A DNA stretch of 64,000 nt from Streptococcus oralis ATCC 35037 (lineage in GTDB: Bacteria; Bacillota; Bacilli; Lactobacillales; Streptococcaceae): assembly GCF_900637025.1 (NCBI RefSeq), contig NZ_LR134336.1, positions 512,001 through 576,000 of the forward strand, in the 5' to 3' direction. The number at the start of each line of letters is the position of its first letter. Position 1 is the stretch's first letter. The translations under genes and the position numbers were made by a program. Positions 27,214 to 62,516 of the stretch are shown here, piece after piece. Below the pieces are notes generated by a model, which ran no database searches, was not told the origin of the DNA, and saw only the letters and a list, made by a program, of their open reading frames with translations.

Positions 27214-27220
27214 AGAAAAA

Positions 27221-27320
27221 AACCTTTAAAGCAGTCCAGAGAGGCAGCTAAGGTTAGACGGTGAAAGGGTGGAGACTACCCATTTTTCGTGGAACCTTGC
27301 TGTTGGCAGGTTCCTTTTTT
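27221..27320 (+). promoter_or_regulatory. PyrR-dependent attenuator
   Basis: The PyrR-binding loop AGTCCAGAGAGGC (27233-27245) sits in a hairpin closed by AACCTT (27221-27226) and AAGGTT (27250-27255). A terminator follows: GGAACC (27291-27296) pairs with GGTTCC (27309-27314) and runs into six T. In the known mechanism, PyrR bound with UMP stabilises the first hairpin and lets the terminator form, lowering pyrimidine gene expression. Confidence 0.88.
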
Positions 27321-27357
27321 CATGCTCTCTAGCTTACAAAGGTAAAAGGAGAAAGGT

Positions 27358-33227: not shown

Positions 33228-33251
33228 GGTCCAGTAATAAAATAATAAAGA

Positions 33252-33406
33252 CATTTGGGGTGCTTTAGGCTGAGATGATACCCATTGAACCTGATACAGT
33301 TAAGACTGGCGAAGGGAAATGTGAAAAGGTTTTTTTCGTATGTCGAAAAGAACTGTCTAATCTTGTAAGCTAAACTCTAATTCTTGATTGTAATTGGAGT
33401 TTTTTT
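33252..33406 (+). promoter_or_regulatory. TPP riboswitch and terminator
   Basis: The aptamer spans about 33252-33321: P1 pairs CATTT with AAATG; GGGGTGC, CTGAGAT and GAACCTGATACAGTTAA are the conserved thiM-box elements. The expression platform includes a terminator at 33372-33402 (AAACTC-T-AATT with AATT-G-GAGTTT) running into seven T, so control is by premature termination when TPP is abundant. The gap 33089-33492 holds only the lctO terminator, this promoter and this switch. Confidence 0.94.
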
Positions 33407-39631: not shown

Positions 39632-39767
39632 AGCTAGTCTGTTTGAGGAAAGCAATAGAAGACTAGCTAGTCCTCATTATCATTTCCACTTCCATCAGCT
39701 AGCATTACCTAGATTGAGTCAAAGGGATATAACAGTCGTTAATCTCAGCTTTACGCACCCCTAGTGG
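39632..39767 (-). promoter_or_regulatory. TPP riboswitch upstream of thiD
   Basis: On the minus strand the aptamer runs from 39767 to 39686: P1 CCAC/GTGG, then GGGGTGCG, CTGAGAT, CCCTTTGA and an ATCTAGGTAATGCTAGC element. The P3-region sequence is less standard than in the first switch, but the key boxes are present. Downstream, GCTAGTC (39667-39661) can pair with GACTAGC (39638-39632) ahead of TTGTTCTT, a weak terminator-like platform. Confidence 0.88.
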
Positions 39768-39785
39768 TTGTTTTCTTTTTTCTAC

Positions 39786-42986: not shown

Positions 42987-43099
42987 ATACTCTTCGAAAA
43001 TCTCTTCAAACCACGTCAGCTCTATCTGCAACCTCAAAACAGTGTATTGAGCAACCTGCGGCTAGCTTCCTAGCTTGCTCTTTGATTTTTATTGAGTAT
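42987..43099. repeat. BOX-type repeat element (A-C form)
   Basis: A 113-bp element with ATACTC/GAGTAT ends and the typical AACCACGTCAG and GCGGCTAGCTTCCTAG segments of streptococcal BOX repeats. The internal part, AACCTCAAAACAGTG, is the conserved BOX stem. It starts at the end of the copA terminator T-run. A second copy lies at 49807-49911. Confidence 0.85.
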
Positions 43100-59973: not shown

Positions 59974-60737
59974 TGGCATTACTTGAAGTTAAACAGTTAA
60001 CCAAACATTTTGGCGGTCTAACAGCTGTTGGAGATGTCACTCTTGAATTGAACGAGGGAGAATTGGTTGGTCTGATTGGACCAAACGGGGCTGGTAAAAC
60101 AACCCTTTTCAATCTCTTGACTGGTGTTTATGAACCGAGCGAAGGTACTGTGACACTAGATGGTCACCTCCTAAATGGGAAAACTCCCTATAAGATTGCC
60201 TCACTTGGTCTCAGTCGTACCTTCCAAAATATTCGTTTGTTCAAGGACTTGACAGTTTTGGAAAATGTTTTGATTGCATTTAGCAATCATCATAAACAAC
60301 ATGTTCTTGCGAGCTTCCTACGCCTACCAGCTTTTTATAAGAACGAGGAAGAATTAAAAAGCAAAGCTTTGGACTTGCTGAAGATTTTTGATTTGGATGG
60401 TGACGCAGATACTCTTGCCAAGAATCTGGCCTATGGCCAACAACGTCGATTAGAAATCGTTCGTGCTCTGGCAACTGAACCTAAAATCCTCTTTTTGGAC
60501 GAACCTGCAGCTGGTATGAATCCACAAGAAACAGCTGAATTGACAGAATTGATCCGTCGTATCAAAGATGAATTTAAAATTACCATCATGCTTATCGAAC
60601 ATGACATGAATTTGGTTATGGAAGTTACTGAGCGTATCTATGTTCTTGAATATGGTCGGTTGATTGCTCATGGGACTCCGGATGAGATCAAGAACAACAA
60701 ACGCGTTATCGAAGCTTATCTAGGAGGTGAAGCCTGA
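59973..60737 (+). CDS. livG: Branched-chain amino-acid ABC transporter ATPase LivG
   Basis: 254-residue ATPase: Walker A GPNGAGKTTLF, signature LAYGQQRRLEI (an AYGQQ form typical of LivG), Walker B ILFLDEPAAGMNP and H-loop IEHDM. GGAGGGA lies before the ATG in the livM tail. It overlaps livF by one base. Confidence 0.95.
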   Translation: MALLEVKQLTKHFGGLTAVGDVTLELNEGELVGLIGPNGAGKTTLFNLLTGVYEPSEGTVTLDGHLLNGKTPYKIASLGLSRTFQNIRLFKDLTVLENVLIAFSNHHKQHVLASFLRLPAFYKNEEELKSKALDLLKIFDLDGDADTLAKNLAYGQQRRLEIVRALATEPKILFLDEPAAGMNPQETAELTELIRRIKDEFKITIMLIEHDMNLVMEVTERIYVLEYGRLIAHGTPDEIKNNKRVIEAYLGGEA

Positions 60738-61447
60738 TGTCTATGTTAAAAGTTGAAAACCTCTCTGTGCATTACGGTATGATCCAAGCAGTTCGTGATG
60801 TAAGTTTCGAGGTTAATGAAGGTGAAGTTGTTTCCCTTATCGGTGCCAATGGTGCCGGTAAAACAACCATTCTTCGTACCCTTTCAGGTTTGGTTCGTCC
60901 AAGTGCTGGTAAAATTGAGTTTTTGGGAAAAGAAATTCAAAAGTTGCCTGCGCAAAAAATCGTGGCAGGTGGCCTTTCACAAGTTCCTGAAGGACGCCAT
61001 GTTTTCCCAGGTTTGACTGTTATGGAAAACTTAGAAATGGGAGCCTTTTTAAAGAAAAATCGTGAAGAAAATCAAGCCAACTTGAAAAAAGTCTTTTCAC
61101 GTTTCCCTCGTCTTGAAGAGCGTAAAAACCAAGATGCGGCAACTCTTTCAGGTGGTGAACAGCAGATGCTTGCTATGGGACGCGCTCTCATGTCTACACC
61201 TAAGCTCCTTCTCCTGGATGAGCCGTCAATGGGACTTGCCCCAATTTTTATCCAAGAAATTTTTGATATCATTCAAGATATTCAGAAGCAAGGAACAACA
61301 GTTCTCCTAATTGAGCAGAACGCCAACAAGGCCCTTGCTATCTCTGACCGTGGTTATGTCCTTGAAACAGGCAAGATTGTCCTATCAGGAACAGGAAAAG
61401 AACTCGCAGCATCCGATGAAGTCAGAAAAGCATATCTAGGTGGCTAA
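60737..61447 (+). CDS. livF: Branched-chain amino-acid ABC transporter ATPase LivF
   Basis: 236-residue ATPase: Walker A GANGAGKTTIL, signature LSGGEQQMLAM, Walker B LLLLDEPSMGLAP, H-loop IEQNA. Paired with LivG. Its TAA stop is part of the first hairpin of the repeat array that follows. Confidence 0.95.
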   Translation: MSMLKVENLSVHYGMIQAVRDVSFEVNEGEVVSLIGANGAGKTTILRTLSGLVRPSAGKIEFLGKEIQKLPAQKIVAGGLSQVPEGRHVFPGLTVMENLEMGAFLKKNREENQANLKKVFSRFPRLEERKNQDAATLSGGEQQMLAMGRALMSTPKLLLLDEPSMGLAPIFIQEIFDIIQDIQKQGTTVLLIEQNANKALAISDRGYVLETGKIVLSGTGKELAASDEVRKAYLGG

Positions 61448-61664
61448 ACTAGTCTGGGAGACTAGTTTAGGCTGTGGATGGAGATTGCGCACGCAATCCC
61501 TCTATAGTCCGAGGGACCTTTTTAGTCGGCAGATAAGGATTGCGTAAGTAATCATACAATCCAGTGGATTGTTTTAGTCGGCGGATAAGAATTGCGTATG
61601 CAATTCTCCTCTAGTCTGGGAGACTAGTTTAGGTTGTGGATGGAGATGATAATAGGTTTTCAAT
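61445..61664 (+). repeat. Four-unit hairpin array, about 54-bp period
   Basis: Units begin near 61449, 61503, 61557 and 61611. Each has a short hairpin, TTTAG or TTTTAG, then a conserved linker (TCGGC-GATAAG or GCTGTGGATGGAG) and usually a second ATTGCG hairpin. Units 1 and 4 share CTAGTCTGGGAGACTAG plus linker; units 2 and 3 share AGTCGGC-GATAAG-ATTGCGTA. Spacing of the TTTAG marks is 55, 52 and 55. Hairpin 1 (61445-61455 with 61459-61469) is a perfect 11-bp stem, overlaps the livF stop and may act as terminator. Confidence 0.8.
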
Positions 61665-61728
61665 ACTAATTGCTAGTATCCTTAACAACTGAAAGAAATA
61701 TAAATAATGATTGCTAACTTGCACATAT

Positions 61729-61756
61729 AGAGCTCTAGATTAGAGCTCTTTTTTGT
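61729..61756 (+). terminator. Strong terminator after the hairpin array
   Basis: AGAGCTCTA/TAGAGCTCT perfect stem with GAT loop and six T. The stretch 61665-61728 shows nothing recognisable. Confidence 0.9.
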
Positions 61757-61791
61757 AAAAGACTCAGATTATTCAAAATCTTGAAAAAGAG

Positions 61792-61830
61792 ATGAAAGCG
61801 TTTGATAGATTTTCTAAGAAAGTGTATAAT
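61792..61830 (+). promoter_or_regulatory. Promoter with overlapping cre-like site
   Basis: TTGATA (61802-61807), 17 bp, TATAAT (61825-61830). Positions 61792-61806 match the cre consensus with one mismatch (A for the late C) and overlap the -35. Confidence 0.6.
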
Positions 61831-61859
61831 AAAAATAGCAATATAGAAGGAGAAGTCTC

Positions 61860-62516
61860 ATGGCAGTTAAAGATTTCATGACCCGTAAGGTAGTTTATAT
61901 CAGTCCAGATACGACTGTAGCACACGCAGCAGATTTGATGCGCGAGCAAGGTTTGCACCGTTTACCTGTTATCGAAAACGATCAATTAGTTGGATTGGTA
62001 ACAGAAGGAACCATTGCGGAAGCCAGCCCATCTAAAGCAACCAGTCTCTCTATCTATGAGATGAATTATCTTCTGAATAAAACCAAAGTAAAAGATGTAA
62101 TGATTCGAGATGTCGTGACGGTTTCTGGCTATGCTAGTCTAGAAGATGCGACCTACCTGATGCTGAAAAATAAAATTGGGATATTGCCAGTCGTAGACAA
62201 TCATCAGGTCTACGGCGTCATTACAGACCGCGATGTTTTTCAGGCTTTCTTGGAAATCGCCGGATACGGAGAAGAGGGGATTCGGGTTCGTTTCATTACA
62301 GAAAATGAAGTCGGAGTACTGGGGAAAATTGTAGCTTTAATTGTAGAAGAGGATTTAAATATTTCCCATACTGTAAACATTCCACGTAAGGATGGCAAGG
62401 TCGTCATCGAAGTTCAAATTGATGGAAAAATCGATTTGACTGCATTAAAGGAAAAGTTTGAAAAAGAAGGAATTCAAGTGGAGGAGATTACTCATACCTC
62501 TGCCAAAGTCCTTTAA
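61860..62516 (+). CDS. CBS-pair and ACT domain protein (AcuB-like)
   Basis: 218 residues: two CBS domains (about 5-60 and 78-135: LHRLPVIENDQLVGLVTEG and IGILPVVDNHQVYGVITDRDVF) that usually bind adenine nucleotides, followed by an ACT-like domain (about 143-212: IRVRFITENEVGVLGKIVALIVEE). The layout is that of AcuB, but no acetoin genes are nearby, so the symbol is not applied. AGGAGAAG precedes the ATG. Monocistronic. Confidence 0.88.
   Translation: MAVKDFMTRKVVYISPDTTVAHAADLMREQGLHRLPVIENDQLVGLVTEGTIAEASPSKATSLSIYEMNYLLNKTKVKDVMIRDVVTVSGYASLEDATYLMLKNKIGILPVVDNHQVYGVITDRDVFQAFLEIAGYGEEGIRVRFITENEVGVLGKIVALIVEEDLNISHTVNIPRKDGKVVIEVQIDGKIDLTALKEKFEKEGIQVEEITHTSAKVL

Follow-up and report, generated by a model that had tools for sequence, protein, structure and literature searches.

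What is the tandem row of hairpins that follows livF in Streptococcus oralis, and why does it stand behind a transporter gene? In the window, by which we mean the whole 64,000-nt stretch of DNA analyzed, livF encodes a LivF-type ABC ATPase (open reading frame 60737..61447, plus strand) and is, judging from gene order, probably the last gene of a liv operon. The initial annotation had described four hairpin-linker modules downstream of this gene, repeating every 52 to 55 bp, and the array is indeed present there, with module starts spaced 55 and 52 bp. Its location was correct, but its start lies at 61444, one base before the stop codon.

The first module opens with a type A outer hairpin at 61444..61470 (plus strand), CTAAACTAGTCT-GGG-AGACTAGTTTAG, which forms a perfect 12-bp stem closed by a GGG loop. 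The stop codon TAA occupies 61445-61447, within the left arm; since the stem begins one base 5' of it, the C-TAA of livF, that is, the wobble base of the last glycine codon plus the stop codon, makes up the outer left arm in our pairing analysis. The BOX-like linker GCTGTGGATGGA and a second hairpin (61483-61498) complete this module at 61471..61498 on the plus strand. The other modules, also on the plus strand, are of type B (61503..61553; inner hairpin 61503-61525 with a degenerate left arm, linker TCGGCAGATAAG, second hairpin 61537-61553), type C (61557..61607; hairpin 61557-61577, linker TCGGCGGATA, second hairpin 61588-61607), and type A (61611..61646; hairpin 61611-61632, linker GTTGTGGATGGAGA), the last having no second hairpin of the usual kind after its linker, unlike modules 1 to 3. 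R1, a covariance model spanning the outer hairpin and the linker and made of 27 units (24 from livF and 3 from loci L105 and L106), recognizes the outer hairpin of module 1 at an E value of 2.6e-9 and modules 2, 3, and 4 at 2.7e-7, 3.6e-7, and 2.7e-8, respectively. Modules 1 and 4 are 97% identical over the 37 nt of outer hairpin and linker. Among the stem letters first reported, CTAGTCT/AGACTAG and CAATCC/GGATTG are correct, but AGTCC/GGACC pairs at only four of five positions. The separate terminator reported 3' of the array is an intrinsic terminator and was found at 61729..61754 (plus strand), as AGAGCTCTA-GAT-TAGAGCTCT followed by T5. The stretch 61440-61680 has a minimum free energy (MFE) of -85.9 kcal/mol versus -62.8 ± 4.1 kcal/mol in shuffles (z of -5.6; 0 of 200 shuffles as low). 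Compared with Rfam 15, the array reached the gathering score of no family; elsewhere in the window, Rfam matched two TPP riboswitches (33246-33334, plus strand; 39674-39772, minus strand) and one PyrR-binding element (27219-27323, plus strand), and no others.

A BLAST search of 284 Streptococcus genomes with the array plus 18 bases of livF (E up to 0.01) matched 158 genomes, a set that differs from the 158 with a stop-codon hairpin considered below. The better matches provided 109 loci, 107 of them with livF (L105 and L106 being the exceptions), and livF was found in 170 of the 178 further genomes in which it was sought. The livF 3' end was thereby obtained from 275 of the 284 genomes; the stop-codon hairpin is found in 158 and missing in 117, arrays being recognized by pairing score and three look-alikes being counted among the 117. 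A motif-based check detected a linker-like motif in 3 of these 117 ends. Modules are present in G023 and G071, where the first stem contains a mismatch or is truncated, a state that recombination among modules would produce. G054 carries a separate BOX-like element further downstream and no stop-codon hairpin. There is no array at livF in 115 of the 275 genomes, and the linker motif occurs within 60 nt in 144 of the 158 arrays. Among eight named loci, the array is present in Streptococcus sp. Marseille-Q0941, S. mitis SK579, S. sanguinis SK1, S. sinensis HKU4, and S. suis HCJ31 and absent at livF of S. anginosus J4206, S. ovuberis CCUG 69612, and S. porci DSM 23759.

On a livF tree of 201 genomes, array presence changes at least 10 times and left-arm changes number 77, against at least 116 with shuffled labels (absence being treated as a state), counts that are rough because the genomes recombine. 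Since the genomes are related as well as recombining, our counts do not represent independent events. Nine livF ends from outside Streptococcus (L118 to L126) showed no array by eye, and an order-wide search of 198 genomes (E up to 0.001) matched 26, of which 25 were Streptococcus and one, weakly (E of 8.6e-4), belonged to another genus. We rejected a dependence on the downstream gene: a CBS-domain gene, sought within up to 850 to 900 nt (three array stretches were shorter), follows in 90 of 158 array genomes and in 79 of 117 others. The array does not need this neighbor. In G047, a second livF copy (L103), whose best one-frame match covers residues 1 to 140, still has its own array 3' of it; on visual inspection, the final codon of this copy, GAC, is likewise compatible with the stem.

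It is in the first hairpin that pairing is kept while the letters change. The 158 arrays comprise 39 distinct first hairpins with 21 left arms as scored, two of these being shortened forms of others. The glycine wobble base and its right-arm partner are C:G in 132 arrays and T:A in 21, with five exceptions, two of them T:G (Fisher, 7e-21), and the stop codon faces the right arm as TAA:TTA in 144, TGA:TCA in 12, and otherwise in 2. A purine wobble base (GGA or GGG) occurs in 0 of 158 genes with the hairpin versus 58 of 115 glycine-ending livF genes without it. Of the first stems scored over 12 bp, the 34 unique ones have 11.9 of 12 pairs, compared with a mean of 10.1 and a maximum of 10.7 when arms were swapped between genomes (2000 shuffles). 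All these figures lean towards pairing because the arrays were chosen by pairing score. Across 31 distinct first hairpins, 99.2% of cells are paired versus 86.6% when shuffled and 62.8% when best slid, and cells changed on both sides number 57 versus 18.9 in the control; further pair types showed no excess in these hairpins (14 versus 14.1 shuffled).

When first and inner units were pooled (n = 27), 79.3% of positions paired versus 69.2% when shuffled. This compensatory change in homologues strengthens the suggestion of selection on RNA structure made in the initial annotation, above all where the first hairpin is concerned; the inner hairpins are constrained far less. In the first set of arrays, all 12 pairs are formed in 98 of 101 first stems, while 203 inner stems average 7.1. 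Median MFE values are -13.5 for first hairpins (n = 158), -3.5 for inner hairpins (n = 331), and -0.65 for the corresponding region of 114 genomes that lack the hairpin. The second hairpin of module 1 has at least six pairs in 142 of 158 arrays versus an average of 41.5 in base shuffles.

Is this module peculiar to livF? A unique, livF-only element was rejected, as R1 matches occur in at least 254 of 279 Streptococcus genomes among the matches listed (E up to 0.01), some genomes having all 23 scored candidates matching among the matches listed. In the S. oralis genome itself, R1 at E up to 1 gave 23 matches, namely, the 4 livF modules, 11 classic BOX copies, and 8 others. The BOX copies matched at hairpin, GTTGCAGATA or near, and hairpin, with E values of 0.04 to 0.54 each; the matches are weak singly, so that their number carries the kinship. 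The livF module, with its hairpin, GTTG..GATRGRA-type linker, and hairpin, is on this showing the core of BOX elements, a correspondence that the initial annotation had overlooked together with the livF stop codon inside the first stem. The boxA, boxB, and boxC labels given to loci here are ones that we take to apply by resemblance to the published description and to the BOX sequence.

The claim that the array is not explained by BOX is therefore partly wrong: its module core is the same as that of BOX, but the BOX ends are missing. Both the R1 matches and the tandem layout reveal hairpin-linker-hairpin B modules in tandem. A boxA 5' end was not found at the array, which is preceded by livF coding sequence; TATACTC lies within 400 nt downstream in 2 of 158 arrays, 235 and 297 nt past the stop codon, and the second of these (L027) opens a BOX-like copy behind the array. 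For the boxC 3' end, GAGTAT occurs within 400 nt in 4 of 158, and TATACTC and GAGTAT occur together in 0 of 158. Lacking the BOX ends, the array is filed as a boxB-like array and not as a BOX element; to judge from these motifs, it is probably a row of tandem boxB-like modules without boxA or boxC ends, a new form of a known kind of repeat.

According to Croucher and others 2011 (PMC3049150), BOX takes the form boxA-boxBn-boxC in S. pneumoniae and S. mitis, with BOX-type elements in S. suis, where the relatives have boxE and boxF ends; boxB arrays are variable, and a BOX copy provides the stop codon in 36 cases. The same text presents BOX as nearly confined to pneumococcus, S. mitis, and S. 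suis and almost absent from other streptococci. The livF array resembles BOX in its core (hairpin, GTTG-CAGATA-type linker, second hairpin) and in its tandem B modules of variable number. It differs in having no boxA or boxC ends, in its fixed position behind one gene in many species, in the livF codon and stop that supply its outer left arm, and in letters distinct from those of the BOX copies of its own genome. In G000, TTTAGTCGGCRGATA has two exact matches, both at livF, and two others at two mismatches (reversed control, 12); the general core, by contrast with this exact sequence, is dispersed. RUP, a simple 107-bp repeat, and SPRITE, an 18-bp duplex with a U-rich tract that resembles a terminator, are likewise small streptococcal repeats and were set apart from the array by their published size and structure (PMC3049150). 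We found no description of the livF array in the literature searched, and neither livF nor liv occurs in the main text of PMC3049150, PMC6212727, PMC8546594, or PMC2828477.

Loci L224 to L243 (n = 20) comprise 3 livF arrays and 17 dispersed copies, and a loose motif search reaching 300 nt found both a (T/A)ACTC-type sequence to the left and GAGTAT to the right in 11 of the latter and one of the two in 6. In L235, the one tandem dispersed copy examined in detail, the left arm of the later hairpin is degraded and its right arm complete, which is also the pattern at livF. R1 matches, livF included, reach 75 in G246, 74 in G079, and 47 in G277. In G246, a GGGAGTGGG-like start is found in 7 of 8 copies and CCGCACAG directly before the core in 8 of 8; in G277, the left end is TATAGTC-like in 6 of 8 copies, and GACTATA stands on the right in 4 of 8. 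The common hairpin core sits in families with unrelated ends, as if movable, in G246 (L441, L444, L450, L453, L456, L459, L462, and L465) and in G277 (L442, L445, L448, L451, L457, L463, and L466). The window contains a BOX core (L259) at 43019-43051 on the minus strand, along which it is preceded by TACTCAATAAAAATCAAAGAG and followed by GAGTATAA. Two other loci of the S. oralis genome (L250 and L252) share a similar AAAATAGTTCGGGGAACTATTTTAG hairpin with a different linker, GCCTGAGC.TAGAAATGAA, and a related form of this hairpin interrupts the livF array of G250 (L205). A module in the same genome (L245, C1:1732475) lies near what by eye is an apparent leuS 3' end, on the opposite strand. In G009 (L106), two modules stand upstream of a livH-like gene, and their outer stems, CTCCA and CTTCAA, differ from the livF stems.

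The explanation that we favor, tentatively and with less than even confidence, is that a row of BOX-type modules has been domesticated at livF and that its stop-codon hairpin is kept by selection on the liv mRNA, likely as a barrier to 3' exonucleases. Tandem BOX-type B modules without boxA or boxC ends are joined to the 3' end of livF in such a way that its stop codon and the wobble base before it serve as the outer part of the left arm in hairpin 1. We infer that selection maintains this hairpin in the liv mRNA. As a structural barrier it would stall 3'-to-5' exonucleases on the 3' side of the stop codon, and a decaying mRNA would thereby keep an intact reading frame and its stop. The inner modules, with their weaker stems, may act as spare barriers or weak terminators, gained and lost via recombination between modules. 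A role in 3'-end protection of the liv mRNA is possible, and we rank such a barrier as most likely, followed by neutral modules with templated arm correction and then by an effect on translation termination. Nothing in the data points to a trans-acting small RNA or to a protein-binding array. The arrangement is reminiscent of the enterobacterial REP/BIME hairpins, which stand behind genes, some near a stop codon, and reportedly slow 3' exonucleases and affect translation; REPs, unlike the livF array, occur dispersed and are associated with RAYT transposases.

A module of the BOX kind is found at one constant position 3' of a single transporter gene in many streptococci, coding sequence being part of its stem, and the array would be a well-defined system in which to test how a repeat becomes domesticated and how structure constrains a stop codon. 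We also put forward a reading that we hold to be less likely than not: a mobile module was domesticated at one gene, the livF stop and wobble base in the stem being kept paired across several Streptococcus clades, and the livF locus is possibly a long-standing site of a core movable among families with unrelated ends (TATACTC, GGGAGTGGG, and TATAGTC types). The observations suggest a BOX core older and wider than the survey in PMC3049150 could see.

Rather unlikely, in our estimate, is that the modules behind livF are neutral or parasitic, their first stems having been made perfect by template switching (palindrome correction) together with allele exchange by transformation. Template switching can indeed produce alike arms of inverted repeats without selection, and Croucher and others 2011 (PMC3049150) judge BOX more likely parasitic than functional. 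Mosaic turnover is strong as well: a rough regex reads 107 distinct module strings in the 158 arrays (7 arrays read as empty), arrays counted by linker regex within 420 nt contain between 1 and 8 modules (a minimum wherever the linkers diverge), and five genomes have a 24-nt tail in common with the window array while their module strings differ and their first hairpins are of types A, B, and C. Products of deletion or recombination are seen in G023 and G071. However, the inner hairpins of the same arrays have remained uncorrected, the 331 of them over 158 arrays having 7.0 of 12 pairs and all 12 pairs in only 4. The array also holds an identical position in S. mitis, S. sanguinis, and S. suis strains. 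The covariation of wobble base and stop codon with the right arm also counts against this reading, although copying from the right arm could give that as well.

It is improbable that the hairpin acts by slowing termination or recycling at the livF stop, thereby setting the LivF level. The stem begins one base before the stop codon in the counted arrays, as the search was constructed to require, and there is a precedent in E. coli, where Liang, Rudd, and Deutscher reportedly found in 2015 that REP hairpins near stop codons act on translation. However, the ribosome should open the stem before reaching the stop, so that the stem would have to be exceptionally stable to cause a clear block, and its outer half is A+U-rich.

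That the hairpins form a series of weak intrinsic terminators, staggering transcription ends ahead of the final terminator, seems more doubtful again. Right arms end in T3 to T5, a simple scan of 61300-61900 found three terminator-like sites (one being the final terminator) versus 0.5 expected, and second hairpins bear T-runs in some other species (S. suis, L115; G079, L104). Nevertheless, the T-run varies, from T5 down to TTT and to TTTC, without loss of pairing. Since the 12 TGA types interrupt the T-run (TTTCAG) and keep the pairing, the terminator T-run is not the conserved feature.

Very improbable, finally, is a DNA-level role as a recombination or protein-binding site, whether as a cruciform or as a target for module gain at GGTGGC: a single module does stand directly after GGTGGC inside a NUDIX-type gene of G049, but the stem letters vary so widely that they are ill-suited to a sequence-specific protein, and pairing with codon bases is simply explained at the RNA level, though a cruciform needs pairing too. 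This NUDIX module (L105, about 1501-1570; L430) has no BOX ends, and the GGTGGC before it matches the letters preceding the livF stop. A homologue without the module is L431; the empty-site comparison involves diverged homologues only (best identity, 73%), too diverged for the insertion limits to be more than approximate. The NUDIX-type relatives L432, L439 (G277), and L435 (G110) stop at the same PGG and continue into a common stretch with TGTGTCATAATAATGA.
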